DNA of 64,000 nt from Sphaerolaimus hirsutus (lineage: Eukaryota; Nematoda; Chromadorea; Monhysterida; Sphaerolaimidae). The translations under genes were made by a program, and so were the position numbers. Shown here piece by piece: positions 13,128 to 55,800 of this stretch. The notes beneath the pieces are model-generated. The model was not told the DNA's origin. It did no database searches and was given only the letters and a program-made list of their open reading frames with translations. The DNA is taken from NCBI GenBank assembly GCA_964036195.1, contig CAXIWS010000562.1, positions 37,938 through 101,937 on the forward strand, read 5' to 3'. Positions within the stretch are counted from its first letter, which is position 1. Every line of letters begins with the position of its first letter.

Positions 13128-16100
13128 TTGTTATTTGGAATTCTAAGCGGATCCATAATCAGTGAGTCGTGCTGTATAAGGAACACACCATTTAACATCG
13201 ATATAACACGTTTGAAATCTGCGCGACACACCGACTCCTGCAGTAGAACATGGTGCGCCCCTGCAGATGGCAGTAATTTGCTGCCAGGGGCCAAAAATGT
13301 GCCTGTCACAAATGACATTCAAAGGCAGTTGATCAAACACTGCAAATTAAACAGTGATGACCAGTCAATGCATGCTGCCCATGTACCACTGCACAAGAAT
13401 GAGCCACCCAGAGAAGTGCTCATAGGTCAGGTGCAAAATTTGGACAAAAGTGAATGGGCAAAAATGCTCAGCATTGGTGACTGCTCAGATGCAGAAAAAT
13501 CCAAGTTAGTGGATGCACTGTTTGAGCTGCGGCATGCATTTAGCTCCATGTAAAAAACAGATGCATGCCAAAATGTGGATGAGATTGGATGCACAGACGT
13601 GGAGCATGAAATTGACACTGGTGACACCCTGCCATTAAGAGTTCCACCAAGGCGCGTTCCACTTAGACTGCGCCCAGAGGTAGAAAAAATGCTCAAGGAC
13701 TTGCTTGACCAAGGGTGCATTGTCCCATCAAATAGCAATTACAGCAGTGCTTTTGTGTTAGTGAAAAAGAAAAATGGCTCATGGCAATTCTGTGTAGATT
13801 TTCACCAGTTGAATTTGAACACAAAGTGTGACAGTTATCCATTGCCCCACATGGATGATTTGCTGGATCTGTGGGCTGGGAGGAAATTTTTCTCCACCAT
13901 GGACATTAAATGTGGATATTACAACATCCGCATCAAAAAGGAAGATCAGCATAAAACTGCATTTACTGCGTTGGATCAGTTGTTTGAGTGGAAGTGCATG
14001 CCATTTGGGCTTCACTTGGCTCCGGCTACATTTCAAAGAGCCATCAACAACATGCTGATTGAACATAAAGGCTACTGCAGAGCCTACTTAGATGACATCA
14101 TTGTGGCATCCACCACACTTGAGGAGCACATTGCTCACCTGAAGGCAGTGATTGCAACAACATGCAAAGCTGGATTGAGACTGAATCCACACAAGTGCCA
14201 TTTTCTGAAAAACAAAATTCAGTATTTAAGGCATGTGATCAGTGGTGATGGAATCCATGTGGATTCAGACAGAGCCACAGCCATTCAAAATTACCCATTG
14301 CCTGCCACCAAAAAGAAGGCATTTCTTTCATGTGACTTGTCAGCTACATGCAACATTTTCACCACAACCTGTCCAAAAGGTTGGCGCCATTGCACAAATT
14401 TTTCCAAGCTGCTGAGAGCAGTAAGGCACAATTGAAATGGACACCTGAATTAGAGAAATTATTCAGGCAGATTTGCACTGAGATGGGTGATCCAAGGGCA
14501 TTAGCAATGCCTGTGCCAGGAAATGACTATGTGATAACCACTGATGCTAGTGCTGATGGATTAGGTGCTATGCTAGAGCAGGAAAATGAGCAAGGCAAGT
14601 TGCAGCCAATTGCTTTTGCTAGTTGTGTGACTGCACCTGTTGAAAAGCGCTACTGTGCCACTGAGTTTGAAGTGCTTGCAGTTGTTTATGCACTTCAAAC
14701 TTTCAGGCCATACATTACTGGAGATAAAGTGATAATTTAGTGGCTGATGTTCTTTCAAGGGCACCTGCTGGACAATTCCTGTTCGCATGGGGTAAAATGG
14801 CTCGATTGACCAGCCAGAAGTCACACTTGATACATTGTGCAACATCAACTTCATCAGTTTGTCACACATTTTAGCCAAATTGGCTGCACAGAAGGTAAGT
14901 GCTGTGCACAACATTGTATTGGCAAGTGACAAAGAGCGCAAGGACTTGTTGCGCTGGCATCATGAAGGGCGCTGGGCAGCACATGCAAGTGCCCAGAAAA
15001 CGTACCAGCGCCTGAGACCATTCTATGGTCATGGAACATGGCCCACACTTGCAGCTGATGTGCAAGAGTATTGCAAAAATTGCAACACATGCAAGCAGCA
15101 ATCAAATCGCTATGAGGTGCTGCCATTGATGCCAAGGCCACCTCCTGACCAGCTGCGTTGGCGCTGGCACATGAATTTTTCCACATTCATGCCAAGCATG
15201 TACAGAGGGCCAGGGCCGTATCCAGGGGGGGGGCGGGGGGGGCTGCAGCCCCCCCCCTCCCGGGGCGAGACCAAAAAGTGACCGGAAAATGCGACTTTTT
15301 CAACGTCAGCGTAAAAAATTTTGCGCGCAAGCGCGCATTCTTCACCAGACATAAGGTATTATCATCGGATTTGCTCCATGTGGCCACAAATCATTATAAA
15401 TACACTCGATGTTGTGTTTTTTTTGCTGTTTTGTATGTATATTTACATACATATACAGCATTCCATGGCGCTGACGCCAACGCCAATGGCGCCATGGCGT
15501 GGCGCCTACTAATGGTGCCAGCGCCATGGCGCCATTCCGCCACTATGTAGCTAAAATTTTAGGGGGGGGGGGCTGAGCCCCCCCCCCTCGCCGGCCTCCG
15601 TAAACAAGCAGCCCCCCCTGCTCAAAAATCCTGGATACGTCCCTGCAGAGGGCCAAAGTACTGCCTTGTTGCAATTGATGCCATGTCGCGTTTCATCGAG
15701 GCAAGGCACTGCAATGCAACTGATGCAAAAAGTGCAGTTAAACTGTACAATGAAATTGTTGACAGACATGGGGTCCCAGAAGAAATTGTGACTGACAGTG
15801 GGACTCATTTTAAGTGCCGTGAGTTTGAGACCGCTTTGCAGAAACACCAGACAGTTCTGCATGTGACCACACCTGGTTCCAAAACCAGCAATGGCATCTG
15901 TGAAAGAGCCATACGCACACTGCAAGATGTGCTGTCCAAGAAATGAGCTGATGACCACCGAGCTTGGCACCTGATCCTGCCTGATGCAGTGGCTGCCTAC
16001 AATGATACAGAGCATTCTGCTACAGGTGTGTCACCATTTGAAGCTCATTATGGCTCAAAGTGTGCAACAACTGGGCATGAGTTTGAAGTTGCACCGCCAC

Positions 16101-16958: not shown

Positions 16959-19900
16959 GAGGATGTGGCAGTAAAAAGTGCAGTACAAGTGAAAAATGCA
17001 TGCATCTGCCGCGAGGGATATGCAAATTTAAAGGCACTAGCAAGTGCCCCGATGATCTGTGCCTAGGCACACATGGTCAGTTCACTGTTTATCTTTCATA
17101 GTGCAAATTAGTGATGTTAAAAGTGCCAGGACTTGCAATTGGCGTAGACCTACAGTATGGAATACACTGTCACTGTGCAGCCCTGGGACCAGTTCCATGA
17201 GTGGTAAAGTCAAGTGTAAAAGTAAAGAGTAAAGTAAAAATGCAAGAGTAAAGTAAAAAGTAGCCATGGCACTTTTACATAACTAGTGCAAATTTTCTTA
17301 TCAATCCCATTTGAAAAACCAGAGAATAAACCCTGCGACTACAATCCTTGTCCATTTGGAGAGACATGTGTGCACACTTGTTGTGAGGTTGTGGTCAGTG
17401 GTGGGTGTTTTCTCCCCTGTGTTGTGGCTTGTCAGGTTGGCTTGATGGTTGTTGTGTTGGCTTTTAGTTCAGGAAGTCCAGTGGTTTGGTTTGGGTACTT
17501 TATTTTAGCTTTGTCCAACAGTAATGGAAGGGAAGGTTTGAAGATGCAATAATGCTATGCAATGCTGTTGAATGTATTTTTGACTATAAATATGAATCTT
17601 ACTAAACATGAGGCTTGCTTTTATACTCCTCAGTTAGCACAAAAACTGTTTGCCAAACATCTAAAAACATGCAAACACTGCTCAGCGACAAGTCAGATGT
17701 TTGATCTATAAAATGCAAACATAGCTCAGCGACAAGTCGGCGGACCCTTCTTATGTAAATAAAACTTTCTTATGTAAATAGACCATGCATGGTACTTATA
17801 CAAACTGTAGTAATTCTTACTCTACTTGTGTAAACAGTAGTATTTTTTACTCTGCTATCCTAAAGTATATTTATCACTTTTCTTGCCAAGATGGCAACAC
17901 TCCCCAGAGGACAATGTGTGAAGCCACCAGTAATTCACCCAATGCTTGACTGCCCATTGATCACAGAATGTCTTCCCCTTGGATCACACAGTGTTGCTGA
18001 TATTTCACCAATGGTTGCCCAAGTTCATTGTGACCATCCTGAGCCAGTGTAACTTCACCTTTACCAACATTGTATTGTATAGTTTGTCCCAGTGTCTTGA
18101 GTTCCTTCTTGGAGTCATGGTTAATTGCCTTCTTGGGTTGCTCCTGCTTTGGTTTTGCCTTTGCCAAATTGGTTGTCAGTGTGAAACAAGTTCCAAACAT
18201 GTTGATGACTGCTCTGAAACATGTTCCCAATGCTCTGACTGGAAGCAGTGGAAGTCCCTTGCTCACTCTGTATGTCCCATACATGTACAGTCCATATCCA
18301 ATGAGAAATATTGCCCCTCCAATGAGTAGCAAGTTCAGGATGAACTGCACTGGTCCTTTCAGGATTCCATTGCACATTGAAGTACTCCCACTCAATGTCC
18401 CTTTGACAATATGACCAATTTCTTTGCCAATACCTTCATAAAATCCTCCAATGCCTGTGCCAACTCCAGCTATAGAATTCTTGATGACAGCTGGATCCAG
18501 TGCCCAGCTGGCTGTGTAGTCTGTCAGTTTCCTTGTCATCTGCTCCAGCTGCTGAAGCTTTTGAAAGTGGTAGTTTGCTTCCCATAAATTGAAGTTGATG
18601 TTGGCCAAGCTGATGTGGAAAATGCTTGATGCATTCAGTGTGAAGGCTGTCCATTTGCCTTTCCATGTCAATTCAATTGGTAAAGTTGATACATGGACAT
18701 GTCCTGGTCCATTTGCTGTTGTCCATTCACCATTGTTCAGTTGAAAATAATGGGGTGTGGCATGTCTGCAATCCTCTGTTGGTGAATGCTGCAGAAGATC
18801 TGAGCTGCCTGGACTAATGAAGTACAACTGTCCCCCTTGCTCAATTTGCACTGGGGTGTATTTGTAACAAGTCCCTTCATAATTTCCAGCAAAGTGCACT
18901 ATTTCAGGTTTCACTTTCTTGCACTCCCAGAATATTGCAGCTTCTCCTGCCCATTCTGCATGAACATCTTCTCTGCCCATCAATGCTCTGATGCCCATTG
19001 TTGGATTCAGCCTGAAGAATTGTCTGATCATATCCAATTGACTCTGTTTCATTGTGCACATTTGTTGCCACACCAGTCCAAATTCTCTTTTTTCCATTTC
19101 AAGAATCTTTTGAGCTGCATATTGAATTTTCCCCAACTCTACAGCCTCAATTGGTGCCTCAAAAATCTGGCTGATTGTATTGTTGTCTGTTTCTGGTTTG
19201 AATACAGTGAACTCTGTCTGCTCTGTTGTGAACTGCAGAAACACTGCACCCTGATCAACATAAAATGCATCCTGTGGCACACATTCTGTGTCTGCTGGCC
19301 ATTTATTTTTGTGTGTCACTGAATATGCACTCTGAATCTCTTCTATGATAACACTCTGTCTGCTGATGCTACCAACATATCTTCCTTGGAATTCATAGGC
19401 ACATTGATGCTTGAACCTTGTGCCATTCCAGACTGTCACAGCATGCATGACATCATGACAATATCCAGCCAGTGGAGAGCATGCTGACAGGTCTTGTAAG
19501 TCTGACACCAATCTATGCCCATCCAGTGATGCCACTTGTCCCTTTTCAATGACAAAATTAATTGCTTCATTCTTTTTGTCAATGCAGCACCACTTGTATT
19601 CCACATGAAGTGTCTGATTGGTTGACCATAAGTCATCATTGAGTTGTATTATTTGTTGCCTTTTCCATTTTTGTGTTTTGACTGCATTCCAGCATTCATT
19701 GGTATCCACTCTTTCAAATTTATGAATGTCTCCAATTATGCCCTTGCTGCCAAAAAATCCCATATTGGTTGTGATGATGTGATGGTCAATGTAGCATCTG
19801 TATGCTACTGCTTTTTGTGGCTCCAATCTTTGTGCCCACAAATTCACTTCCTGTTTCCTGACTTTGTCTGTGACAGGAAATTTGCAGTATATCTTATCTG

Positions 19901-22900
19901 GTATTGCAATTGCATGCCCATTTTTGGCCTTTGTACACAAGTTGAACTGTTTGTTGTACTGTTGCTGCCAATTGCCTGTTCCATTTGTACCAGACATGAT
20001 AGTTGATATGATGGTCAAAACTTGCAATCCCACCATGAAGAAATCTGCATATGTTTGCTGTCTTCTGGCTGTTCTGTGTGGATTCTTTCTGGCTTCTGGT
20101 GCTTGTGATGGCTGGTCTGATGGATTCTTGTCCATTGGATTGTCTTTGTCTTTGACATCCTTTTCTTGTCCTTGTCCATTATAGTCTTGAACTTCTAATG
20201 GACACAGATGTACAATTGGTCTCTCAATTTTGTTTCCACTTTTTAATTGTACTTCTGCACTTCTGATCCATCCATCTTTGCTTCTGTTCAACTTCTGAAT
20301 TTTTCCAAGCTTCCATGCACCTCTTGGTAAATTCTGTTCTTTGATCAGTACCACTGCACCAACTTTGGGTTCTGTGATTACATCTCTATTACTTTGTTTC
20401 CCAAAGTTGTATCTCTGTCTGTGCATATCCAGATACAGCTTCTGCCATAAATGCCATAATTTCTCCTTTTTCTGTTGAATTGCATCCCATACTTCTTTCA
20501 TTTTCTGTTTTTCATTTCTGGCTGGTGTATATTCTGGATCAGCATCCATACTTTGATGGCTTTTATCATCTGACATTAATTTTTCCACAGGATCTGATCC
20601 TGTGTGGTCCCCCAGCAGAAAATCCATTGGCCTCAGGACTTGGAGTGTGTCAATTGTGTCACCCACATATGTCAGTGGTCTGCTGTTTGACATCTTTTCC
20701 ACTTCTAAAACCATTGTGCTGAGTTCCATCCAGTTCAACAATGGGTTGTAATTTGCTGCCTGGGCTTTCTTCATGAGTTGTTTGATGATGCCCACAATTC
20801 TCTCATATACTCCACCTTGCCATGGTGCAAATGGAGTGATAAAATTCCACTGTATATTTGGCAGATTCCTGGCCAATTGTTTGAATTGTGGTACATTATC
20901 CAACCCAACTTTATGTGGTGTATTCCTCCTGCTCTCAAATCTGGTGAATGCCATTTGTGTCTCTGCTGCTGTCATATTTGGTACAAGCTCTAAGTGTGCA
21001 GCTCTTGTACTGAAGCAAGTGATCAGAAGGACATATGCCTTCTTGTGTGCCTTCTGTCCCAACTCATCTGCCACTTGATACCACAATGGGCCAAAGTAAT
21101 CCATGCCCACATGGTGAAATGGCCTGTGCAACTCCACCCTTTCTTTTGGCAGTGTTCCAAACACAGGTTGTTTGTATGGCCTTCCTGTGACCTTTCTGCA
21201 CACCACACAATGTTTGATGATATTGTGTATCATGATTCTACCCCTGTGGATCCAAAATTTCTCCCTGAGCTCTGCCAATGTCTGTGCTACACCAGCATGC
21301 ATTACCTTCCTGTGGTAATGTTCAGTGATCAACCTGGTGATGCATCCTTTCTGTGGCAAAAGATACAGTTCCTGGTTGCAATCTATGTCAGGAATTCTGG
21401 TCATCACTTTGACAATATTTTTGACACTGTCAAATTTCAGCTCCTTGGCAATGATGCCAAAGTGTTTCTGGAATGGCACATTCTGTTTCTGTGCCTCCTT
21501 GATGAGCTTTATTTGATCTGATGATTGAATGTGTTGTGTTACTCTGACCCAGTACTCAGTGGCTGCTTGCCATTCATCTTTCATGAATGGTGTCTCCTTT
21601 GTGTTCAAAGTGATTTGTTGACAAGCTGATTTCTTCTGGTGCTTGCTTTTCAAATATGCCACAAATCTCATCACTCTGATTGTTACCCTGAGTAACTTGT
21701 CCCATTTTGAGAACCTTTTTGGGTCAATCTGATAACTGTTTTCTGTTTCTGCCAGGAAATCCTTTGTTTCTGGCTCCTCTTGTGTAGTCAACCCAACCCA
21801 GATTGAAGATTTTGGCATAATGAACTCTTGTTCAATTTCTGGCTTCAAATCTGGTGGCATTGACTCATTGTCTGGTTGAAAATCTGGTGGCAACTCTGCT
21901 TGAAAACCCATTGGTCCTGTCCACCAAATATCCTTTTGCTGAAGTTCTTGCAGGTCACATCCTCTGGATGCAATGTCAGCTGGGTTGTCAGCTGTGTCAA
22001 TTTTGTTGACCTGCACACTTGTTTCAGTTTGAATGGTCTGGATTTCCAAAATCCTGTTTTTGACAAAACATGCCATTGTTTTGTTGGAGTGTAGCCACCA
22101 CAAACAGCAAATACTGTCTGTCCACAAGAAACTTTTGGCTATTTTCCACCCTTTCAGTTGTTTCTGTAGGAATTTGACCATTCTGGCTCCAATTGTTAAG
22201 CCCAATAACTCCAGCCTTGGAATTGTGATTGGCTTCCCTTTCTGCTGCTTGGGTGCCACTCTGGACTTTGCAAAAATCAATTTCATTGCAAATTTACCAT
22301 TCTCTAATTCTTGTCTGAGGTATGCTGATGCTGCATATGCCTGTTTTGATGCATCTGTAAACACATGCAATTCCATCATTTCTGAGGGCTTGATGGGTTC
22401 CAATGTCCTTGACCATTTGATCTGATTGACTTGTTTCTGTAACTCTTTGATTTCTGAAAACTTTTCATTGTATTGGTCTGGTACTTCTGTTTCCCATTCT
22501 AATTGACCTTTTGACTTGATTTCTGCCCAAATTTGCTGCATTAGGGCTTTCAGAGTAACTGTCACTGGGCACAGCATGCCCAATGGGTCAAAGATGGCTG
22601 AAATCAACTGAACCAGAACTCTTTTTGTCAACTTCTGTGGAAGTGGATTGTCTGCCCCTTTTGGTTTGCTGATATTGAGTGTGTCTGTTTCTGTGTCCCA
22701 ATGCATTCCAAGTACAGTGACTTCTTTTGTTTCACTCTTGTCATCTACATTGAAGCACTTTCTCAATTCTGCACTATTTGTGGTCCAATCCCTCATATTC
22801 ATTGATGCCAAATTGAATGCTGCTTTGATGACATCATATTTCTGTTTGGCCAGATCCACTGAATCCACACTGAAGATCAAATTGTCTACATAAATCCCAT

Positions 22901-25900
22901 CACTGATTCCCTCCAGCAATTGTGCTTTTGGCAAACTGCTATCCTCTACAAGGACTTGTAGGTGTTGTGTGATGACAGCACCCAGCAACCATGGGCTTGA
23001 AATCACACCAAATGGCATCCTGACAAATCTGTACAATTGAAGATTCTGCTCCATTACTGGTTTTGTTGGATCTTTGTACCACCACCATCTGGTCAAATCT
23101 CTGTCTGGCTCTTGTAACACCACTTGCAAGAATGCCTTTTCAATGTCTGCAATGATGCCAATGCTACCAGCTCTGAATCTCAGCAAAAGCCCAGCAAGCT
23201 CTGGCAAAATCACTGGCCCTCTATGCAAGCAGTCATTCAGACTGAGGTGATTTTTTATGCTAGCTGATGCATCATATACAATTCTTAGCTTTGTTGTTGT
23301 TTTGCCTGGTGTTTCTACTGGTTGGTGTGCCAGGTAATGGATCTTTCTGCTATCTGTTGGCTCACCAAACACCTTTTCTATGATGCCTTTCTTGAGCTGA
23401 TCCTCAATCACCTGATTGTATCTTTGGAGCAAATCCATCCCCTTTTCATCTTTGGAAAATCTGTTTGTCAGTGCTCTGTGCCTTTGTAATGACATTGCTT
23501 TGTTGTCTTGCAATTTCTCTATACAGTCCTTGTATGGCCATTTCACATGGTATCTGAGGTCTTTGTATTCAGTTGTTGCATGAAATTGCTGTGTTGCCTT
23601 TTCATCATCATTGATGACTGGACAATCTTTAATTTCAATTGTCTCTAATTCCCAGAATTCTTCAACTCTTGGGTTTGAAATTTGAGTGGAACTGCTATAA
23701 TGTCCATTGTTGATAGCCAGTTCATAATTCTGCTCAGTTACCTGGCTGACTGTAAAGACACCACTGTTCTGAGCTTCTTTGTTTGATGTACCATCCTGGC
23801 CATTGATCATCAGCCCAAATTTGCTTTTGACCACATGCATTCCAGATGGTAATTTGATTGTGCCCTGTTTGGTCAGGAAGTCCCAATACACATCCAAACC
23901 AAGGACTATGTCAGGGACACTCTGTTCTCCATTGGAGTTGATTGGTTCTGCAAACAACTTGTCTGCCTGTTGGCCCCACTTCTGATGGATGAATTCCCAA
24001 TCATCTTGTGACAAGTCCTGGTGGGGTTGAATTGTGGCCAGTGTTTCTATTGCATTTGCTGTGATTGTCTGCCTGGACCCATCCTTCAATTGCAAGTCCA
24101 GCTCCACAATCTCAGCATTGACATCCATTTTCTTTTTGGTCCCAAAGGTGCCCAGCCCAATAGTTACTGCAATTTTGGGTTGGAGCTTTAACTTCTTCAT
24201 GAACTCCTTTGACACAAATGTCCTTTGTGCCCCTGAATCCAAGAAAATCTTGGCACATTGCCAAGGTACTGACTGATCCTCTGGGTTATATGCCATTGCT
24301 TTGGCAGTTTGCATTCTGACTGGCCGGACTGAAATGTACCTGTTTCTGTTTCCATTTTGTTCACTGTTGCATTTGTGACATCTACTTCAACTGTTGACTT
24401 TATTGTCTGTTCTGTTGATTGCTGTAGCCTGTTTACTGCATTTTATCTGTTCAATTCTGTTGTTGAACTTGGTTTGCCTGCCATTGCCATGGCAGTCATT
24501 GTCTGTGGCTTGGTGCCTTGGTTGGTGGATTTGTGCCCACCACTGCTCTTGTTAAGTTCCTTTACTCCATTACTGAATGTTTCTGGACAAAGTGCTGAAG
24601 CATGTTGTTTTTTTACCTTGCAATAGAAGCATCTGAGGTTGGTCCTGCAGTCTCTTTTGAAATGTCCCTTTCTGGTGCACTTGGTACATCTGTCTTTTGA
24701 TTGCATCAATTTCTGCATTCTGTTTTGAGTTGTTGCATATTTTCTGCACTCTGAACTGAAGTGACTCCCTTCACAAAAGATGCAATATGGGTTGTTGTTG
24801 GTTGCTGAAGCTGAGAATGCACTGGTGGTTGTTATTGGTTTCTGATCTCTTTTCTGATGTAAATTCTTGCTGAAGTTGGATTCTTGTTTGTCTGATGTGT
24901 CTGTATCAGCCTCTTTCCTCTGTTCAATGATCTTCTCCAAACTGCTAAGAATGTTTGCAACTGACCATTCTTGATCTTCTCCTTTTATTTTGACAATTTC
25001 AAGTCTGATGTTACTTGGGATTTTGGATCTGATCATCTCAACTGTTGCATAATTGTTCATATCTTCATTCTGAGATCTGAGTTGATACACCAGTGATTGC
25101 ACCTCTCTGTGAAAACTCTGCAAGCTCTTGTAGTGCCCTTTTGGCTCTGGTACTTGCTGGAGCTTTGCATACAGTCTTCTTTTGATGTCTCTTGTCTTGC
25201 CATATTGTTTTTGCAGAATTTCAATGGCCAATTCATAATTTTGCTCAACCACCCTGATTCCTTTGATGGCATCAAATGCCTCCCCAGTCACATATTTCAG
25301 CAGATACTGGAACTTTGTGATGATGGCCATATCTGTCCTTTTGTGTATGACTTGCTCATATGACTGCCACCAAGCATCCCACTGGATGATGTCACCATTG
25401 AAGTCTCTCAACTCCAACTTTGGCAACTTGGCTTCCATCAACCTTGGTGTAGTCCTCTGAGTTGTATTTGACTGGCATTGTCCAGCTGTTGTTGTTGCTG
25501 AGTTTGAGTTCTGTTGTTGTGCCAGTGATGTTGTCCCTGTACCAGTGATTTTCTGTAGGTATTCCTCCAGTGACTGAATGCCAATCCTCAAACTGATTGC
25601 TTTATCCTCAAGCTGTTGAATCAGATTCAGATGTCCTTCTGGGCTCTCCAAGTGCTCTGCATACTTCTGCTCTTCTTCACTCTGAAGTACTTGGGATTCT
25701 TTCAGACCTTGATTTGAAAGGGCCTCTAAATTTGCCAGAACATTCCTCCACTCTGTGTCCCTCTCTGTCAATTTCTGTTTGCATGCTTCACATTTGTCTC
25801 TCAGGTTTGCCATAACCACTCTGACTTGTTTAGCCTTTGACACATTCTCATGAGTAGCACTCTCTTTGACATGTGTGAAAACTGGTGCTTCCTCTGCCAA

Positions 25901-28900
25901 CAGAGTCTTTGCTTGTTTCCTGTTCTGTCCCAGGACCTTTCTGATTGTGCCTGATCCCACAAGCTGTGGAACTGCATTGCCATATTCTGACTGTGCCCTG
26001 TCTCCAGTTGCAAGCTGCGCCATGTTGTGAGGTTGTGGTCAGTGGTGGGTGTTTTCTCCCCTGTGTTGTGGCTTGTCAGGTTGGCTTGATGGTTGTTGTG
26101 TTGGCTTTTAGTTCAGGAAGTCCAGTGGTTTGGTTTGGGTACTTTATTTTAGCTTTGTCCAACAGTAATGGAAGGGAAGGTTTGAAGATGCAATAATGCT
26201 ATGCAATGCTGTTGAATGTATTTTTGACTATAAATATGAATCTTACTAAACATGAGGCTTGCTTTTATACTCCTCAGTTAGCACAAAAACTGTTTGCCAA
26301 ACATCTAAAAACATGCAAACACTGCTCAGCGACAAGTCAGATGTTTGATCTATAAAATGCAAACATAGCTCAGCGACAAGTCGGCGGACCCTTCTTATGT
26401 AAATAAAACTTTCTTATGTAAATAGACCATGCATGGTACTTATACAAACTGTAGTAATTCTTACTCTACTTGTGTAAACAGTAGTATTTTTTACTCTGCT
26501 ATCCTAAAGTATATTTATCACTTTTCTTGCCAAGATGGCAACAACACTATGTTCAATAAAACTGCCAATTTACAGTTCTACAAATGCACTTCTGGTTAGT
26601 CAGCTGTGTATACAGATATCTAAGTCAACTAAGTTGTTCAAATCAAATCAAATCAAATTGGTTTACTTGACTCAGACCATGAAAGCCAAACGCAAGTAAA
26701 ATCACATTACACATACCGTATTTGCTTGAATAATTCCCCCCCTTGAATAATTCCCCCCTCGAATAATCTCCCCCTGTAAGATGAGCGAGGAAAAAATAAT
26801 TCCCCCCTCGAATAATCCCCCCCTCAAAGCATACGTCAATTTTTTATGTCTAATTTGGACAAGAATAGCATGTTATTGTGTAAATAAAGCATGTTTTGTC
26901 GAATGAGTTGATGGAAACATGCTTGAGAATTCTGATGAAATAATAATTCCTCCCCTTGAATAATTCCCCCCCCTTGAATTATCCCCCCCCTCAAAAAAGT
27001 CTGACGAAATAATAATCCCCCAGGGGGATTATTCATGCAAATACGGTATATTGTTGTTCGCACGTTTTTTGTGATGACAAAAACTTTTCAGCTTTACACC
27101 ATGTCTTTGTCATGAAATTCCTCGACAGATGCTGACATTACCTTGAAAACATTTCCTAGACTTTCCTTGATCTGCCTTGTTGCATCAAATTTCAAGTATT
27201 ACACAATTGTGCAGTTGTGCTATTTATAACTCCAAATTGTGCCATTTATAAAAATATATATTATTTGTTTTCAAATTTTTGATTTTCTGGTTTAAAGCAA
27301 AAGGACTGTTTGCAGCAAGAAGTGAACAAGTCCTAGTACACTTTTGTTTATTGATTTCACTGCAGAATTTTAGCAAACACCCTAATGGCATTCTATGGAC
27401 ACCCAATTTTTACATGTATGCAGGAGCTGAAAATTGAACACCTTTTTGTCAACATGCTTGATGGTAGGCATGAATGACACCAATTGGACACAGCATAGAC
27501 CATAGTCTTGAATCTGAAACTTAAAAATGCAATTTACTCAAAATCACATTTTGTGGACTTGCAAACTTTTCAAATTAGAGGCTTCAATTGTCATCACAGA
27601 AAAACCATGTGGACAACAAATAAGCAAAAGACAGAACTCACAGATGACGAGATGTGAATGTCTAGCCTAATGTGCTACATGTCACTGCGTAGGTCTCTGT
27701 GGCAACATCTGCACACCGCACCAGGTTTGCCTACCCAATCGCAACCGCAGGTCACATTGTGTGCCCCTTTTGAATGCTAAAAATGGTGTCTATGATGGGA
27801 ACAATGCCAATGGTTGGTTCATGGTTGACTGATTGCTTCACTCACAGTCACAGCAATAAAGGTCACAGCAAAAAATGGGGGTGTGGATGTGCGGTGAACA
27901 TTCATGAAGGTTTTTCACACTGATGATCCCCGATCAAGTATGCTAGCACATCCATACATGCACAACAAAAAATGGATCCGTGAAGCTTGTAGAAGCGGTC
28001 TGGATGCGTGTGAAGCGGCACGCTTCCACCAACATCACAAAAATCTCGGTGAAGGTTCTTCCACGCGCTTCACCTAGCTTTACCGCACGCTTTACGTGCA
28101 TCCAAACATGTGGAAGACACTTCACCGCGCTGGCGCTTCCACACGCTTCTCGTGCGTATAAATGTGCGTGGGAGCGCCATATAAGGAAGCGTGAAGTGTC
28201 TGCACGCAGATTTTCGTGATGTGTGTGGAAGCCTCAGCATGCTTGGTGAAGCGTCGGGAAGTGTTGGCGTGAAGACACTTCCCGACGCTTCACCGCGCAT
28301 CCACACACCCATTTTTTGCTGTGATGCCATGAAAATTTTCATGAAGACACTTCACACTTATAAATATGACACTGGAGAGCAAATTTATATGTTGGTAATG
28401 TGTGTGCAAGCACCAGCAGTGCAAAGTGTATTCCGTGGTTTTGATGTGTGTGAAGCAGAGTTGTTAAAATACCGGTATTTTTGGAAAGTGTAAGTGTAAG
28501 CGTAAATACACTTTCCAAATTTTGACTATGGATACTGTAAGTGTAAGGTATTTTTAAAATACCTAGGAAAGTGTAAAAAAAGTGTAAGTGTAAAAAATTT
28601 TTTTAGAAAGAGCTCTCACTGTTGAGCATCAGAAAACACCACTGTTTTCACCTTTAGATCAATTTATTTATCATTTTCATGCATTAGTTCACATTTTACT
28701 GCTGTATGAACAGCCGTATGAAACATTTCAGACTGTAACAAATTTAGTGGTATGAAGTTGCGTAATAATGGCACGTTTTCAGTGTTGATATTTTACTGAT
28801 TAAGCTGTGATAATCACTGTTTAAATACAAGAATGGACATACAGCAATAATGTAAGTGCAAAAGCCAGTGTCCACAGCAGGTGAAATTGATCTTGTCCTG

Positions 28901-31900
28901 TTTACAAAGTATGATGAAACTGTAGAATACCATGAGTACTGATCAAAGGTTGTAGATCAAAGGCTAGTTTGTACATTTGCCATATTTTCTACATTCAATG
29001 CATAACTGCATGTGTGCACTGTGCAGTTATTGTTTGTACATGACCCAGTTTTATGCTTCCTCAAATGCTTCAAACAGGGCCATCTGAAAGAAAAAAATAC
29101 ACTTTCTGTATCCGGGTATTTTGCCCAGGAAAGTGTAAAAAAAGTGTACGGGTATTTTATGAAAGTGTAAGTGTAAGGGTAAATAAAAATACCCATTTAC
29201 CCGGGTATTTCGGGTAAGTGTAAATACACTTTCGCAACTCTGGTGTGAAGTGAATGTACAGCTAGGTTAACCATGTTGTTGTGCCTGTACCACCATGTAT
29301 TTACATGTTTTTGCCCCAAGCACAATTTGAATTTTGGCACTGTAAGAGATGTCAATCAATATGCGTCTCTGCAGTGCCACCTCACTTTTAGGGGTATTGA
29401 AGACAGTGTTGTGTGCTTTTTAGGTCAGTTCAGTTGATTTTCCCTCTCTTTCACCTTCCCTCCCATTGCCCTTGCCCCAAGAGTGCAAATTGAATGGAAA
29501 ATGTTGACAGTATGAAGTCTATGTTGCACAGCAATGGTTTGAATTGGAAATCACTGCACCCAACATGAATGTTCCTCATCCTTGGCTACCAGCCTCTTAG
29601 AATCTGGTACTTTCTTGCTCAAAGTTCTCATCGCTGGTTCTTTTGATTGGAACTTGGGACTCACTTGTCCAATGGGTGTGAATACTGGGGTGTCAACACA
29701 TTTTTTATGGAAAACAGAAATCACAGCAAAAAATAGGTGTGTGATGCGTCGTGAAGCTTCTTGAAGTGCCTTCACGGTTCGCTTCCCGACGCTTCACGAC
29801 GCTGGTCTGCGCTTCCCGACGCTTCACAAAAATAGTTGTGAAGACACTTCACATAGCAAAAATTCTTCACGAAGCTGCACAATGTTGGTGAAAGGTCTTC
29901 ACTTCCGACGTCCCACTGTGATGTGTCTTCACAATGTCAGAGCTGTAGTGACGGCACTTCACATGAAAAAAGTGTGGTAATTTTAGTATTAATATGCTTA
30001 TTGACTGCATAACTTTATTATGAGGATGCGACGATAAGGTACATATGAAAATAAACTTAATGCATGACAAGATAATGGGAGATGGTAAATAGTACCTAAA
30101 TAAAGCAGCGAGAAATGTGACTAAACATGGCTCATTGAACTATATGGCACACATGCCCATCCATCCATCCTTGGCATTTGAATCATTTTTTTGCAGTAAA
30201 ATACAATTGGAAGTGTGAAGTGCCTTCAATAATCTCTTTTTTTTCTGAAGTGTCTTCACCAAGTGTCACAACGCTTCCACTGGAACTCGGCATCAGTTTG
30301 ATGCGTGTGGAAGCGTCAGCGTCGGGAAGTGCACTTCACAAAATTACAGGCTTCGTGAAGCTAGGTGAAGTGAGTGGAAGACACTTCACCGAAAACTTCG
30401 TGAAGTGTGTGGAAGTGAGTGGAAGTGTCTTCACAGAGTGCGCTTCCACACACTTCACGAACTTATTTTTTGCAGTGAATGGTAATGGAAAAAAATTCTG
30501 TGGCCGGAAAACGGAATGGAAAAAAAGTTTGCACTTGCCGGAAAACGGAAGAAAATTACAGCGGTTGGAAAACGAAAAACAAGGCTGGTACTAGTGATGT
30601 AAAGGCACCGGGGCACCGGTGCCCCGGTGCTGGGCACCGAAGGGCACCAGCACCGGTGCTGGTACCGTGCCATTGCAATCTTCAGGGGTGCCATGCCGGT
30701 GCCGGTGCCATTTTTTTCAGAATAGCACCGGTGCCGGTGCGGTGCGGTGCCATTTTTTTGCCGGTGCCAAAGGTGGTAGCACCAGGGCCAAAGTAAAAAG
30801 CACTGGGAAAGGCACCGGCCGAGGCTTCATGTGCTGTGCAATTTTGACCATAGTATGTCCTTATTCATATTTCAAAAAACAGCGATATATTTACCCAACC
30901 GTTTTCGCCTATTTTGTAAACCTCCCATCAAATAAATATACCTACTGTGAAATCCATTATACCCGATACATGATCTGATGACCGAATCTAAAATTTTGTT
31001 GAATTTTAAATCATTTTTATATTTTATATTTATCTTACTTGTTTGTTCAAAATTTGTTGTCAGTTTATGACAGAGATAGTTCCATTCTCTGTACAGCAAC
31101 GACTCCGATTAGTAGACAATAGTGGCTATGGACATTGCAGTGAATTAAATATTTTATCTTTAATTTGTAATCATTGTAATTGCTTCATAAAAGTGATTGC
31201 CACATCATTCTGATTATTATTAGTGCTCAACCATCAAAATCGGTTGAAAATTCATGGAAATATGCACTTCCAAAAGTGAGACCACTGAGAAACTGCCCGA
31301 TATTTACTTCAGAAATTCCAGCCCGGTGCGGTGCCTTTCGGTGCTAGCACCGGCAACCCGCCGGTGCCCTTCGGTGCCGGTGCCATTTTTTCCAAAAGGC
31401 ACTGGTGCCGGTGCAGTGCGGTGCCATTTTCTGGCCGGTGCCCCAGGGTGCCAGGTGCTCTTTTCATGTGTTGGCAAAGGTGCCGGTGCGGTGCGGTGCC
31501 ATTTTTCCCGGTGCCTTTAACATCACTAGCTTGTACACCGGAAATGGAAAAATTAAATTTGCACTGAAACAGAAAAAAAATTGCTGAAATTTTGCTGGAA
31601 AATGAAAAAAAATGCTGAAATATGCTGGAAATGGAAAAAAATGCTGAATTTTTTATGGAAAATAGAAAAAATTAACATAATTGAAAACCTGCATCCATGT
31701 TTACCAGTTTGCCTGAAACAGAAAACAGACAGTTGAGCCGGAAAAAAAGGAATATGAGGTGGATAAAACAGAAAATTGAGCCGGGAAAATGGAAAAAAAG
31801 TGGAAAAACAGAAAATTGAGCCAGAAAATGGAAAAAGCCAGAAAAACTAAAAATTCAGTGTAAATGTAAAATGAACCAGAATAATGGAAATGGAAACGAA

Positions 31901-32369
31901 AAAAAATTGTGGCTGGAAAACGGAACGGAAAACGGAAAAAAATTTTCAATGGCCGGGAAATGGAACAGAAAATGGAAAAAATTTGCCTTCGGAAAACGGA
32001 AACGGAAAATGGAAAACAGATATTTGACACCCTAGTGAAGACTGCCTGCCTGCTCTGGCACCCGTGTGTACAACAATGTCAAAAACACTTCATCATAAAG
32101 TTGATTATGTTGATAAAGGAAACATGTGCTAAAAATAATGCCACTTCTCATGCAACTTCCAGTTTCCAATGCATCAAACACCCATTTTTTCTGTGGATAC
32201 CATTGGAATTGTACAATGCGCAGGCAAATTTGTGCCATGCAAAGATCACACTGCCTGCTACCCGTACCGCGAGCCGGTCGAATGGTACTGCTGCATGGAC
32301 AAGAAAAACTTTCAACACAAGTGGAATGGGTCTGTTGCGTGTAAAATATGGAAGCCAGTAGATTTATAA
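16959..32369 (+). CDS. Cysteine-rich, probably secreted protein; one exon split by a BEL element
   Basis: Three exons are supported. Exon A is 16959-17075 (38 codons, six Cys, acceptor TTTTTCAG, donor GTCAGT). Exon B is 17323-17378 continued at 26549-26594. Exon C is 32224-32369, ending in TAA. All junctions are phase 1. Exon B reads CDYNPCPFGETC and, beyond the insertion, FYKCTS, a cysteine pattern like an EGF-type module. Exon C holds CKDHTACYPY and WYCCMD. The 5' exons, including any signal peptide, were not found. A donor at 32341 (TGCGT|GTAAAA) would instead continue in phase into candidate exons 33737-33815 and 34502-34590. The BEL insertion interrupts exon B between codons for Thr and Met, so this allele should not give a normal message unless the element is spliced out. 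Confidence 0.75.
17374..17378. repeat. 5-bp target duplication of the BEL element, left copy
   Basis: ACACT here and at 26544-26548 flank the LTRs. Five bp is usual for BEL/Pao. It pins the insertion point to within exon B of the cysteine-rich gene. Confidence 0.93.
17379..17899 (-). mobile_element. BEL 3' LTR
   Basis: 521 bp with ends TGTTG...CAACA. It matches 26023-26543 base for base as far as I can read. It contains ACCATGCATGGT and repeated TTATGTAAAT blocks. Confidence 0.96.
17961..24314 (-). CDS. pol: BEL/Pao pol polyprotein with env-like C-terminus, 2117 aa
   Basis: Domains in order: aspartic protease (FLDSGAQRTF near residue 26); Pao-type reverse transcriptase with YVDN at 22881-22892 (about residue 475); RNase H (HVFTDASKQAY near 647); integrase zinc-binding HH-CC (ending CVVCRK near 1045); integrase core (VGMDYFG near 1071, Asp in VGLDN, Glu in GGVYERIVG); and a C-terminal DUF5641-like part up to about 1400. 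A hydrophobic, signal-like segment near 1425-1443, a Cys-rich ectodomain with Asn-X-Thr sites, and a transmembrane helix near 1990-2012 form an envelope-like glycoprotein. YVDN replaces the usual YVDD. The frame is open for some 70 nt upstream of the ATG. Class of the glycoprotein is undetermined; chuvirus-, phlebovirus- or herpes gB-derived envelopes are known in other BEL elements. Confidence 0.93.
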   Translation of the reverse strand: MQTAKAMAYNPEDQSVPWQCAKIFLDSGAQRTFVSKEFMKKLKLQPKIAVTIGLGTFGTKKKMDVNAEIVELDLQLKDGSRQTITANAIETLATIQPHQDLSQDDWEFIHQKWGQQADKLFAEPINSNGEQSVPDIVLGLDVYWDFLTKQGTIKLPSGMHVVKSKFGLMINGQDGTSNKEAQNSGVFTVSQVTEQNYELAINNGHYSSSTQISNPRVEEFWELETIEIKDCPVINDDEKATQQFHATTEYKDLRYHVKWPYKDCIEKLQDNKAMSLQRHRALTNRFSKDEKGMDLLQRYNQVIEDQLKKGIIEKVFGEPTDSRKIHYLAHQPVETPGKTTTKLRIVYDASASIKNHLSLNDCLHRGPVILPELAGLLLRFRAGSIGIIADIEKAFLQVVLQEPDRDLTRWWWYKDPTKPVMEQNLQLYRFVRMPFGVISSPWLLGAVITQHLQVLVEDSSLPKAQLLEGISDGIYVDNLIFSVDSVDLAKQKYDVIKAAFNLASMNMRDWTTNSAELRKCFNVDDKSETKEVTVLGMHWDTETDTLNISKPKGADNPLPQKLTKRVLVQLISAIFDPLGMLCPVTVTLKALMQQIWAEIKSKGQLEWETEVPDQYNEKFSEIKELQKQVNQIKWSRTLEPIKPSEMMELHVFTDASKQAYAASAYLRQELENGKFAMKLIFAKSRVAPKQQKGKPITIPRLELLGLTIGARMVKFLQKQLKGWKIAKSFLWTDSICCLWWLHSNKTMACFVKNRILEIQTIQTETSVQVNKIDTADNPADIASRGCDLQELQQKDIWWTGPMGFQAELPPDFQPDNESMPPDLKPEIEQEFIMPKSSIWVGLTTQEEPETKDFLAETENSYQIDPKRFSKWDKLLRVTIRVMRFVAYLKSKHQKKSACQQITLNTKETPFMKDEWQAATEYWVRVTQHIQSSDQIKLIKEAQKQNVPFQKHFGIIAKELKFDSVKNIVKVMTRIPDIDCNQELYLLPQKGCITRLITEHYHRKVMHAGVAQTLAELREKFWIHRGRIMIHNIIKHCVVCRKVTGRPYKQPVFGTLPKERVELHRPFHHVGMDYFGPLWYQVADELGQKAHKKAYVLLITCFSTRAAHLELVPNMTAAETQMAFTRFESRRNTPHKVGLDNVPQFKQLARNLPNIQWNFITPFAPWQGGVYERIVGIIKQLMKKAQAANYNPLLNWMELSTMVLEVEKMSNSRPLTYVGDTIDTLQVLRPMDFLLGDHTGSDPVEKLMSDDKSHQSMDADPEYTPARNEKQKMKEVWDAIQQKKEKLWHLWQKLYLDMHRQRYNFGKQSNRDVITEPKVGAVVLIKEQNLPRGAWKLGKIQKLNRSKDGWIRSAEVQLKSGNKIERPIVHLCPLEVQDYNGQGQEKDVKDKDNPMDKNPSDQPSQAPEARKNPHRTARRQQTYADFFMVGLQVLTIISTIMSGTNGTGNWQQQYNKQFNLCTKAKNGHAIAIPDKIYCKFPVTDKVRKQEVNLWAQRLEPQKAVAYRCYIDHHIITTNMGFFGSKGIIGDIHKFERVDTNECWNAVKTQKWKRQQIIQLNDDLWSTNQTLHVEYKWCCIDKKNEAINFVIEKGQVASLDGHRLVSDLQDLSACSPLAGYCHDVMHAVTVWNGTRFKHQCAYEFQGRYVGSISRQSVIIEEIQSAYSVTHKNKWPADTECVPQDAFYVDQGAVFLQFTTEQTEFTVFKPETDNNTISQIFEAPIEAVELGKIQYAAQKILEMEKREFGLVWQQMCTMKQSQLDMIRQFFRLNPTMGIRALMGREDVHAEWAGEAAIFWECKKVKPEIVHFAGNYEGTCYKYTPVQIEQGGQLYFISPGSSDLLQHSPTEDCRHATPHYFQLNNGEWTTANGPGHVHVSTLPIELTWKGKWTAFTLNASSIFHISLANINFNLWEANYHFQKLQQLEQMTRKLTDYTASWALDPAVIKNSIAGVGTGIGGFYEGIGKEIGHIVKGTLSGSTSMCNGILKGPVQFILNLLLIGGAIFLIGYGLYMYGTYRVSKGLPLLPVRALGTCFRAVINMFGTCFTLTTNLAKAKPKQEQPKKAINHDSKKELKTLGQTIQYNVGKGEVTLAQDGHNELGQPLVKYQQHCVIQGEDIL
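24443..26023 (-). CDS. gag: BEL/Pao gag protein, 526 aa
   Basis: Nucleocapsid/capsid precursor. The N-terminal third is charged and helical with coiled-coil-like spacing. A DUF1759-type gag region of BEL elements lies near residues 195-320 (KLPKLELRDFNGD, FQYLLKYVTGEAFDAI). Three zinc knuckles follow near residues 415-485: CIFCEGSHFSSEC, CTKCTRKGHFKRDC and CFYCKVKKQHASALC. The ATG straddles the LTR/PBS junction; the next Met is about 70 residues on, so the first is preferred. The frame closes with TAA about 130 nt before the pol ATG, in a different frame. Confidence 0.93.
   Translation of the reverse strand: MAQLATGDRAQSEYGNAVPQLVGSGTIRKVLGQNRKQAKTLLAEEAPVFTHVKESATHENVSKAKQVRVVMANLRDKCEACKQKLTERDTEWRNVLANLEALSNQGLKESQVLQSEEEQKYAEHLESPEGHLNLIQQLEDKAISLRIGIQSLEEYLQKITGTGTTSLAQQQNSNSATTTAGQCQSNTTQRTTPRLMEAKLPKLELRDFNGDIIQWDAWWQSYEQVIHKRTDMAIITKFQYLLKYVTGEAFDAIKGIRVVEQNYELAIEILQKQYGKTRDIKRRLYAKLQQVPEPKGHYKSLQSFHREVQSLVYQLRSQNEDMNNYATVEMIRSKIPSNIRLEIVKIKGEDQEWSVANILSSLEKIIEQRKEADTDTSDKQESNFSKNLHQKRDQKPITTTSAFSASATNNNPYCIFCEGSHFSSECRKYATTQNRMQKLMQSKDRCTKCTRKGHFKRDCRTNLRCFYCKVKKQHASALCPETFSNGVKELNKSSGGHKSTNQGTKPQTMTAMAMAGKPSSTTELNR
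26005..26022 (-). promoter_or_regulatory. Presumed primer-binding site of the BEL element
   Basis: Directly after the 5' LTR the minus strand reads TGGCGCAGCTTGC, in the standard position and with the TGG that pairs with a tRNA CCA end. It overlaps the first gag codons. The tRNA was not identified. Confidence 0.65.
26023..26543 (-). mobile_element. BEL 5' LTR
   Basis: 521 bp with the same TGTTG...CAACA ends. Its last transcribed-strand base (26023) is also the A of the gag ATG. The element promoter should lie inside it. Confidence 0.96.
26544..26548. repeat. 5-bp target duplication of the BEL element, right copy
   Basis: ACACT, matching 17374-17378. Exon B coding resumes directly after it with ATGTTC. 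Confidence 0.93.
26716..27046. mobile_element. CCGTATTTGC-type MITE with CTTGAATAATTCCCCC subrepeats
   Basis: The ends CCGTATTTGCTTGAATAA and ATTCATGCAAATACGG lie between TA dinucleotides. The arms hold repeated TTGAATAATTCCCCCC units. It lies in the intron after the interrupted exon B. Confidence 0.85.
27047..27863. other. Intronic/intergenic stretch, no gene seen
   Basis: About 800 bp of AT-rich sequence without supported coding potential or a clear repeat. It would lie in the intron between exons B and C of the cysteine-rich gene. Confidence 0.5.
27864..28323. mobile_element. CACAGCAAAAAAT inverted-repeat element, copy 1
   Basis: The ends CACAGCAAAAAATGGG and CCCATTTTTTGCTGTG are inverted. 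Between them lie many GAAGCGT/CTTCAC repeats in both orientations. No convincing target duplication was found. Related copies: 29722-30477 and 57282-58666. Confidence 0.8.
28454..29242. mobile_element. CAGAGTTG hAT-type MITE, copy 1
   Basis: The ends CAGAGTTGTTAAAATACC and TTTCGCAACTCTG are flanked by an exact 8-bp duplication GTGTGAAG (28446-28453, 29243-29250). The arms carry GTGTAAGTGTAAG repeats and AAATACAC blocks. The interior matches 54046-54500. Confidence 0.95.
29251..29721. other. Unassigned stretch with a weak minus-strand reading frame
   Basis: A minus-strand frame from about 29700 to 29551 (TPVFTPIGQVSPKFQSKEPA ...) has a coding-like residue mix. No splice context or family was recognised. 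It may be a fragment of a mobile-element protein. Confidence 0.25.
29722..30477. mobile_element. CACAGCAAAAAAT inverted-repeat element, copy 2
   Basis: 756 bp, from CACAGCAAAAAATAGGTG to CTTATTTTTTGCAGTG. It is the reverse complement, with small differences, of the element at 57282-58666 once the insertion in that one is removed. It is full of CTTCACGA/GTGAAG repeats. Confidence 0.85.
30478..32033. mobile_element. GGAAAACGG hAT-type MITE, left end missing
   Basis: Arrays of GGAAAACGG/GGAAAATGG occupy both sides, and the right end AATTTGACACCCTA at 32033 matches the full copies at 37854-38839 and 57342-57973. The left TAGGGTGTC end is absent; the element abuts copy 2 of the CACAGC family. A second element (30592-31528) is inserted in it. 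Confidence 0.8.
30592..31528. mobile_element. TAGTGATG/GGCACC hAT-type MITE nested in the GGAAAACGG element
   Basis: It starts TAGTGATGTAAAGGCACCGG and ends GGTGCCTTTAACATCACTA. The flanks are GCTGGTAC and GCTTGTAC, a 7/8 target duplication. The arms are GGCACCGGTGCC repeats. The middle (about 30830-31310) shows no gene. Confidence 0.85.
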
Positions 32370-32439
32370 ATGCAAAAGCACATTTGTAAATGCAACAGAA
32401 ACTGTGTAGAAACTGCATTTCACTTACAATTATGACAAA

Positions 32440-33083
32440 AACCTCCTCCCCAATAATCCCCCTTAAATAACTCCCCCTCGCATAACTTTCAAGTCAAAAC
32501 GTAGCGATGAAAAAAACTCGCCTGGGGACTTATTCGAGAATTTACAGAGGAGAAATAATGAAAACATTAAAACACGCAGATATGGTGCAATGTGCGACAA
32601 GAAAATAGGCGCGTGCGTTATGGAACGCTGGGAACTGGGCACACTGCGCTGGACATTGCCAGGTGACAGCTGGTGGCAATCCCAAGCCCTGTAAAGTGTA
32701 AAGTAAAGTGTCAAATGTAAAGTCAAATGCAAAGTAAACTGTCCAATGCAAAGTCAAATGCAAAGTAAAGTGTCAATTGTGTATCCAAATCATATTTTTT
32801 GGTATCCAAATATTATGTTTTTGTATCCAAATCTTACTTTTTGACATACGATTTACATTTGACACTTTACCTTGCATTTGACTTTAAATTTGACACTTTT
32901 ACTTTGCATTTGACAGTTTACTCTGCATTTGACTTTACATTTGACACTTTACTTAACACTTTACAGGGCTTGGGACTGCTCCTGGTGGCAGTCCCAAGCC
33001 CTGTAAAGTGTAAAGTAAAGTGTCAAATGTCATGCAAAGTGTCCATTGTCATGACAAATGTAAAGTAAAGTGTCAATTGTCAT
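32440..33083. repeat. CCCTGTAAAGTGTAAAG inverted-repeat elements
   Basis: A small AATAATCCCCC/GGGGAC patch (32445-32530) precedes arms of TGTAAAGTAAAGTGTCAAATG repeats. These occur once forward (32688-32775) and once inverted (32860-32970), bounded by CCCAAGCCCTGTAAAG and CTTTACAGGGCTTGGG; a further arm follows at 32990-33080. Same family as 50917-51440 and 53018-53602. Confidence 0.75.
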
Positions 33084-33351
33084 TAGCGTTCTAAAAAATG
33101 GGTGATTATCAAAAAATATAATTAATATAATTTTAGAAAATCTCTCAAAAACAAAATATAATTAAATCTCTCTGTAAAACACTGAGAAAATATAAATAAA
33201 TATAGATGAGAGATTAAATTATATTTTTTTCTCATAAATAAAATATAATTTAATCTCTCTGGAAAAATCTGCAGACAATATAATGAAATAAGAGATTTTT
33301 TATATTTAATCTTACTTTTAAATATAAATCTCCCAGATTTTTGGAACGCTA
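33084..33351. mobile_element. TAGCGTTC hAT-type MITE with AAATCTCTC repeats
   Basis: The ends TAGCGTTCTAAAAAA and TTTTTGGAACGCTA lie between ATTGTCAT and ATCGTCAT, a 7/8 duplication. The interior is built of AAATATAATTAAATCTCTC units in both orientations. Related to the outer arms of the 56340-59940 element. Confidence 0.87.
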
Positions 33352-33736
33352 ATCGTCATGCAAAGTTCCATAACAAAATCGTTTCTTTTTTTGTTTTGAT
33401 TGACATTTTACATGACATTTGACACCTACTCTACACCCTACAGGGCTTGAAACTGCCCTCTGGAAAACCAATTTATAATTGAGAAGTGAAAATTCAAAAT
33501 AGAAGTATATTTATAAGTGAGAAGTCAAAAGGCAAAAACAATGACAAAATGACAATGGCGAGTGAAAAAATGTAACACTTTGTCTTTGAGAGCTTCATAC
33601 TTTCAAAAAGTACGCGTATAGACGAGTACCGGTATTTTTACACAAGGAAACGTAAACTTTTAGACGTAGTACTCGCGTATACCTATCAATCAAGTTAATG
33701 TAAATACGTTTTAACAACTATAACCTCCACTTCAAG

Positions 33737-34590
33737 ATCTCTCCGAGGAAGTGGGTGCGACAAACTGCGTCGATGCCTGCCCCTGTTGCCAACCAAAGGG
33801 CTGGCGCTGGCGCGGGTGAGACTAGAAATTTGTCGCAATCGCAGAGTTATGAAGATTGCTCGAGGCTGAAAGTGAATATTGATTTTACAATACTCTAGAG
33901 CAAGCCTATTTAGGGATACTGTATTTCCTCGAATTACCCCCCGGGGGTTTATTTTTTCAGAGTGAAAATTTTGAGAGAAAAACGTGAAAAATGCAACAAT
34001 AACCACCATTTATAAGTTTTTACAGCCTTATAAAAAGGATGTAGATGGTATAAACGATGTTCTAACGTAACACAGTAAGTGTTTTGAAAGTCTGTTATGC
34101 ATTTCCTGGATCACAAGTTCATAGTGCTCATTTTGAGGGGGGGGGGGTATTTCGAGGAAATACGGTAATTTTTTCTAAGCGTACCTGTTTATTTATGATT
34201 TTTGGTACCGGATTTGTCGTTTCACTGGGAATTTGTCGTTATGCTGTCACTGTTGTTAAAATGTACGTAGGTATATTTACTTGAAAAATATGTGTACGCG
34301 AGTACGCGGTAAATAAACAACTTCCCGGTCAGATCCGGCAGCCTAATTTAGATTGCATTCCGGATGAGACACTTCAATAATCTAAAAACTAAATTGAACC
34401 ACGGGAACAGGCACTAAAGTGAATCTCTGGTGGCCGCCCATCGGTGTTGGTAGGTTTTGTCTACACTCACCACAAATTTAAGCTCTCTAACCCACTCACA
34501 GCTGGAGATATGGCGCCCACAGTGTAAGACATCAAGTGGGTGCCGAACCTGTGCGGGACACTGAAAAAGCCAGAAAAATGTTTCAAATAG
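33737..34590 (+). other. Two candidate exons, possibly 3' part of the cysteine-rich gene
   Basis: 33737-33815 (acceptor CACTTCAAG, donor GTGAGA) reads SEEVGATNCVDACPCCQP, 25 codons with GC-rich third positions. 34502-34590 (acceptor CACTCACAG, donor GTACAT) reads 29 codons including RDTEKARKMFQ. Phases 1-2 and 2-1 match each other and match exon C if that exon is spliced at 32341. Minus-strand readings with good acceptors also exist over the second piece and just right of the first (33865, 34560), so strand is uncertain. Confidence 0.38.
33919..34165. mobile_element. CTGTATTTCC/AAATACGG MITE
   Basis: TA-flanked inverted ends (CTGTATTTCCTCGAAT, TTTCGAGGAAATACGG) with C-run and G-run subterminal parts. 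A near-identical copy is at 47808-48065. Confidence 0.85.
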
Positions 34591-34610
34591 GTACATCAAC
34601 CCACACTGTA

Positions 34611-35025
34611 CGTATTTCTCCGTTTATAACACCCGGGGGTTATACAAAATCGGAGCAATTTTCAGCGAACGTTTTAAAATCTTGTATAACACCCGGGTGT
34701 TAGGTCAGTGGGGGTACTATACATGGAATTTACATTCAACCGAACAAAACAGCAAAAAAGCATAATAATTACCATTTTCTTTCATTTTCTAAACATAATT
34801 GGAGAGCATATTGTTTTTGTTCCCAGCCCGCAGCTAATTCAATGGAAAAAATATGCGTGGTGCACGTGCTGTGCCGCGGAATTTCAATGAGTAGCGCCAG
34901 ATACAGTATTCAGACCATTCAATTTGAGCCATTTTTTGAAACCTTGTATAGCACCCCCGGGGTGCTAAAAAATTCTCTACCCCCGGGTGTTATGCACGGG
35001 GGGTGCTATAAACGGAGAAATACCG
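34611..35025. mobile_element. CGTATTTCTCCG MITE with AACACCCGGGGG subrepeats
   Basis: The ends CGTATTTCTCCGTTTATA and TATAAACGGAGAAATACCG are inverted and TA-flanked. The subrepeat TATAACACCCGGGTGTTA is itself palindromic. Confidence 0.85.
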
Positions 35026-36720: not shown

Positions 36721-36837
36721 AAACTATATCCTCGAATATGTCCCCAGGGGAGTTATTTTTTCATCAGCGTTTTTGAAGGTGGAGTGATTCAAAGGGGAGG
36801 AGTTATTTTAGGGGGGTCTTATTCGAGGATATATGGT
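36721..36837. mobile_element. Short TATATCCTCGAATA MITE
   Basis: Inverted ends TATATCCTCGAATA and TATTCGAGGATATATGG enclose GGGGAGTTATTTT subrepeats. Confidence 0.65.
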
Positions 36838-55798: not shown

Positions 55799-55800
55799 TA

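Follow-up and report, generated by a model that had tools for sequence, protein, structure and literature searches.

The 64,000-nucleotide stretch of Sphaerolaimus hirsutus DNA analysed here (the window; unplaced contig C471:37938-101937, in an assembly of 348.5 Mb and 762 contigs) appears to record the arrival of a BEL/Pao-type long terminal repeat (LTR) retrotransposon with an envelope-like domain in the middle one of three 3'-end exons of a cysteine-rich gene. The insertion probably occurred (probability about 0.87) after the interrupted gene copy and an uninterrupted copy on C1, a chromosome-scale contig of the same genome, had separated, likely as haplotypes. The parts of the gene and of the element are as follows, in window positions:

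16959-17075, plus strand: host exon A, cysteine-rich, phase 1 on both sides, with an open frame, splice signals and 97% protein identity to the C1 copy
17323-17378, plus strand: left portion of the interrupted host exon B, with the first ACACT at its end; uninterrupted in C1
17374-17378, plus strand: left copy of the target-site duplication ACACT, adjoining the element
17379-26543, minus strand: BEL/Pao-type LTR element, 9,165 bp
17379-17899, minus strand: 3' LTR of the element, with 521/521 bases the same as in the other LTR
17961-24386, minus strand: pol-env open frame, 2141 aa between stops, or 2117 aa from the first ATG at 24314
17961-20195, minus strand: envelope-like C-terminal part of the pol frame, 744 aa and stop
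24443-26023, minus strand: gag open frame, 526 aa, with DUF1759 and three CCHC-like knuckles
26023-26543, minus strand: 5' LTR of the element, 521 bp
26544-26548, plus strand: right copy of ACACT, of which the empty site has one only
26549-26594, plus strand: right part of host exon B, holding the fourth cysteine of the module and followed by the donor GTTAGT
27693-27832, plus strand: host exon C, entered in phase 1, with TGA at 27830-27832 and AATAAA at 27855-27860

The LTRs start with TG, end with CA and show no difference over their length. Removal of the element together with one ACACT joins the two parts of exon B in frame into an open exon of 102 nt (34 codons), which is in phase 1 on entry and exit, as fits exons A and C, and contains four cysteines spaced C-x4-C-x5-C-x15-C. 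The first-pass annotation had proposed from the window a recent BEL/Pao insertion with an ACACT duplication and apparently identical LTRs, splitting a cysteine-rich exon between phase-1 introns whose pieces join in frame, and had suggested a check for the empty site. Each of these points is borne out, and an empty-site copy is present in C1:30610300-30610545, where the joined flanks align with one ACACT only and the exon is open, reading ENKPCDYNPCPFGETCVHTMFNKTANLQYYECTSG. The Blast blocks meet at this site, one joining window 17199-17382 to C1 up to 30610437 and the other joining window 26544-26638 to C1 from 30610428.

The two copies are collinear over 35 kb (window 16718-51906 against C1:30608794-30637816) with a mismatch rate of 0.057, which was taken from a 21-block chain and counts in a last, off-diagonal block at C1:30696256. 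Divergence between the LTRs is 0/521, with a 95% upper bound of 0.57%, about tenfold below the 5.7% that separates the host copies. An insertion would look younger than it is if its LTRs had undergone gene conversion; barring this, the identity of the LTRs set against the host divergence shows that the insertion is later than the split of the two copies. An LTR query of the genome gave 41 matches with 40 of the 107 candidates scored, and among these at least 13 same-strand LTR pairs, including that of the window, are 6.9-10.6 kb apart and at least 10 of them 8.3-8.7 kb apart, judged by position only. The pair at C2:7436888-7446047 is nearly identical to the window pair. The number of pairs and this near-identity indicate that the element family has probably been active lately.

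Integration, as read from the duplication, proceeded by a 5-bp staggered cut; the element lies antisense to the gene and interrupts exon B after 56 nt. Read-through from the left part of the exon would add 57 LTR-encoded residues and then a stop, with loss of the fourth cysteine of the module and of exon C. Skipping of exon B would leave exons A and C in frame, because the exon is 34 codons long with phase 1 on both sides.

The interrupted exon is part of a gene family, as judged from related sequences: besides the C1 copy, six of the paralogous loci that were read have an open exon B (C1:30598.6 kb, C1:32342 kb, C1:32383 kb, C2:24454.6 kb, C2:24343.8 kb and the unplaced contig C174). A search of the genome with the exon chain gave 51 matches, with relatives of exon A in other loci and paralogous exon C in several. 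The order A-B-C on one strand is present at C1:30598-30599 kb, C2:24454 kb, C174 and C2:24342-24344 kb. C174, with 98% likeness to C2:24454 kb, may be the second copy of the C2:24454.6 kb locus. Two loci near C1:32.34-32.38 Mb have the donor context GGTTAGTCARCTGTGTAT in common with the window and the C1 copy, and the other paralogues read differ there.

A splice-scored scan for cysteine-rich exons missed exons A, B and C, the first two because their donors (GTCAGT and GTTAGT, respectively) score below its threshold; unfiltered frames revealed exons A and C and the left part of B. Across the 54.8 kb that lie outside the element, the plus strand matches the pattern C-x(3,4)-C-x5-C-x(7,15)-C three times, precisely at exons A, B and C, and the minus strand matches it once. 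In 30 Markov sequences the plus-strand count averaged 0.43 and never exceeded 2, and when the 1.8-kb empty-site region was simulated by 2000 Markov sequences none reached 2. The comparison is in part circular, as the pattern was chosen after these exons had been seen, and the paralogues are therefore given more weight. No exon of the host gene was found further upstream, and protein, PDB and Pfam searches gave no usable relative, so that the gene stays nameless. The exon had also been described as EGF-like, a label that derives from cysteine spacing alone and is not upheld, since no Pfam family matches the exon chain at E up to 1. The sole EGF-type match among five family members was EGF2_RECK (E 0.26) in one of them. 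EGF domains have six cysteines, including C-x-C, and with four cysteines and no Pfam EGF match for its chain, exon B was not assigned to them.

The coding capacity of the element is uninterrupted in both the gag and the pol frame. The pol-env frame, which was split into pieces for profile search, contains in order DUF1758 protease, RVT_1, Peptidase_A17, Integrase_H2C2, DUF5641 and the envelope domain (Pfam). DUF1759, DUF1758, Peptidase_A17 and DUF5641, which we take to be families characteristic of BEL/Pao, all exceed their Pfam cut-offs, and together with the LTR pair they identify the insertion as a BEL/Pao element. The reverse transcriptase (RT) match RVT_1 is under its curated cut-off (E 1.5e-5), and RNase H and the integrase core gave sub-cut-off matches only (RT_RNaseH_2, E 0.094; rve_3, E 0.08-0.18). 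The RT motif is YVDN, not YVDD, and stands as GIYVDNLI in the RT piece (window 22665-23264, minus strand). Belpaoviridae, which parts of PMC3118150 also describe, have LTRs of 0.2-1.2 kb and a whole length of about 4-10 kb (PMC8742986), ranges that include the 521-bp LTRs and 9,165-bp length found here, and the order from protease through RT to integrase along the frame is likewise that of the family. Their primer-binding site is complementary to tRNA-Arg or tRNA-Gly (PMC8742986). The gag ATG of the present element spans the 5' LTR edge at window 26023, and the stretch where a primer-binding site is expected therefore falls within the gag frame.

The envelope-like part has a hydrophobic leader near residues 52-70, a transmembrane-like segment at 618-636 and five N-glycosylation sequons, and its residues 238-510 match Monjiviricetes_fusion (PF24664) with E 2.8e-13 and 49.2 bits against a cut-off of 27. 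Matches to Glycoprotein_B (E 4e-5) and BDV_G (E 1e-4) are under their respective cut-offs, and in a sequence search of PDB herpesvirus gB entries appeared only at E 0.15 and above. The top PDB match, a nanobody (E 6e-4), was taken as chance, and an AlphaFold2 model from three sequences (mean pLDDT 29) was too poor for use. PHROGs gave no match to the envelope, and scans of viral and GTDB contigs with the envelope alignment gave no relatives. Among 5.8 billion proteins, a search that reaches only relatives sharing short exact words returned two, P0002 and P0003, both with a Monjiviricetes_fusion domain. P0002 begins with a weak DUF5641 match (E 0.015, under the cut-off), which suggests that it has the same pol-env fusion as the window element.

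Envelope-bearing BEL/Pao elements with a class III-type fusogen are already a known kind, since published work describes both the Tas-type envelope and chuvirus glycoproteins within Pao elements. The YVDN motif is described in nematode belpaovirids in sections of PMC9094657 and PMC554778, and a section of the former describes the Tas envelope as weakly like herpesvirus gB (class III). Tas of Ascaris, Cer7 and Atlas resemble the present element in having the genes of BEL/Pao, an envelope acquired from a different lineage of viruses and the YVDN motif, a likeness drawn from gene content and RT motif. In contrast to Tas, the envelope here agrees best with Monjiviricetes_fusion, with gB below the cut-off. 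Chuvirus glycoproteins are contained in mosquito Pao elements, according to parts of PMC7642597, and chuvirus-type glycoproteins occur likewise in further arthropods and nematodes, according to parts of PMC10084718. Anakin of mosquitoes, as portrayed in parts of PMC7642597, is a Pao-type element with a Jingchuvirales-type glycoprotein within its LTRs, as here; it is likened by description only, the present protein searches having given just P0002 and P0003, both nameless.

The relationship between the filled copy on C471 and the empty copy on C1 decides whether the insertion is a polymorphism. The two copies are, in our judgement, rather more plausibly two haplotypes than not, in which case the sequenced individual would be heterozygous and the insertion likely polymorphic. 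The leading alternative, to which we give appreciable but clearly lower credence, is that they are duplicated loci on one haplotype, so that the insertion may be fixed. C471 is an unplaced contig of 102 kb, which speaks against duplicates, as does a 2.5-kb block (window 45112-47600) with just two near-full-length matches, in C471 itself and in C1 at 96% (40 of 866 candidates scored). Unplaced contigs also score almost like a chromosomal locus in two other cases (C444/C14 and C530/C6), weak evidence since the query was a retroelement. Duplication is favoured by the clustering of the gene family at C1:30.35-30.6 Mb, where two loci are 98.7% alike over 1.7 kb.

Several observations weigh against the insertion having split an exon in one of two haplotypes. 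The one other unplaced/placed pair measured, C174 and C2:24.45 Mb, differs by only 1.2%, whereas the mismatch between the window and C1 is 4-7% in all but one of six blocks (the sixth, a short one, has 2.2%), with many indels. Collinearity with C1 stops at window 16709, and C471 to the left of this break matches C1:30542500-30702000 in runs of at most 496 bases, of which many are repeats; for C471:1-10000 and 20001-37937 the comparison was confined to C1:30.54-30.70 Mb. The exon B acceptor is low, at the 73rd percentile of AGs, and paralogues examined by eye likewise lack a long pyrimidine tract there. A second haplotype-divergence control, C408, was dominated by repeats and uninformative.

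The tested sequence left of the break is repeat, comprising an LTR element and a high-copy stretch, which may explain the lost collinearity by hiding a shared flank and so argues against duplicates. The LTRs of this second element (C471:32736-33225 and window 4976-5465) are identical at 489/490 positions. The stretch C471:10001-20000 gave 4197 first-look candidates, and among the five scored its copies are up to 99-100% alike over kilobases (C16, C4, C571, C10 and C289).

Of the 16 gaps listed by hand between 17 collinear blocks, six are extra window sequence (9161, 413, 787, 2165, 970 and 746 bases, with C1 at most 2 bases extra), three are extra C1 sequence (946, 314 and 1943 bases, with the window at most 5 bases extra), and the remaining seven differ on both sides. 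The 413 bp without C1 counterpart, at window 26639-27051, start 44 bp after exon B, are rich in AATAATTCCCCCC and have a relative at 55370-55800. The 1,943-bp insert of the C1 copy (C1:30614267-30616209), which we take to be hAT-like, has termini CAGGGTTGG...CCAACCCTG and lies between two copies of GTTGAC. It adjoins the final sense codon of exon C, and the C1 copy therefore reads into the insert without a stop.

This insert at the stop codon would also fit a gene copy already decaying before the retrotransposon arrived, which would then have hit a dispensable or dead exon, an explanation we regard as unlikely. Exon differences between the window and C1 copies are 4 synonymous and 11 nonsynonymous over 342 nt (dS 0.060, dN 0.041), and the dN/dS of 0.69, with 8 of the nonsynonymous changes in exon C, would fit such decay, weakly given the few sites. 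Against prior decay, both copies have all three exons open with their cysteines kept, and the C1 copy retains an intact exon B together with the splice sites of exons A and B. An assembly chimera, which the small unplaced contig ending in a repeat array might suggest, is highly improbable in view of the exact 5-bp duplication, TG..CA ends, complete LTR pair and exact empty site on another contig.

Elsewhere in the window, fragments of reverse transcriptase and integrase H2C2 of another retroelement are present at 13554-15278 on the plus strand. On the minus strand, a PAN_1 match at 43406-43681 and a TSP_1 match just below cut-off at 36957-37145 are possible exons of another gene. A tandem and inverted repeat array occupies 60633-64000 at the contig end, and scanning the window against Rfam and for tRNAs returned nothing. 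Outside the window, COX1 on contig C762 stays open under genetic code tables 4, 5, 9 and 13 but not 2, and AGA at serine positions and AAA at lysine positions suggest table 5; to us this COX1 does not look like that of a nematode.

Insertion after separation of two copies, probably haplotypes, agrees with known exonic retrotransposon insertion polymorphisms in its young element, target-site duplication and empty counterpart, and differs from the usual case in that the exon is symmetric and the other copy of the gene has a different insertion. The event, of an ordinary kind, is unusually well documented by its empty counterpart, and the two form a clean before-and-after pair for a coding-exon retroelement insertion within one assembly, with its timing bounded by the divergence of the copies. 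Any gene model on C471 is split by the element, which is a warning for annotation. The BEL/Pao family of the element is young and multi-copy. The member found here has a class III-type envelope domain, and this bears on how retrotransposons acquire viral entry proteins. As a tentative proposal that falls somewhat short of even odds, an envelope-bearing BEL/Pao lineage with a YVDN RT and a class III-type fusogen would be moving now in this invertebrate, where it would have broken one haplotype of a clustered cysteine-rich gene while an unrelated DNA transposon altered the other, so that the animal may be without a copy in ancestral form and exon skipping may rescue the filled allele.

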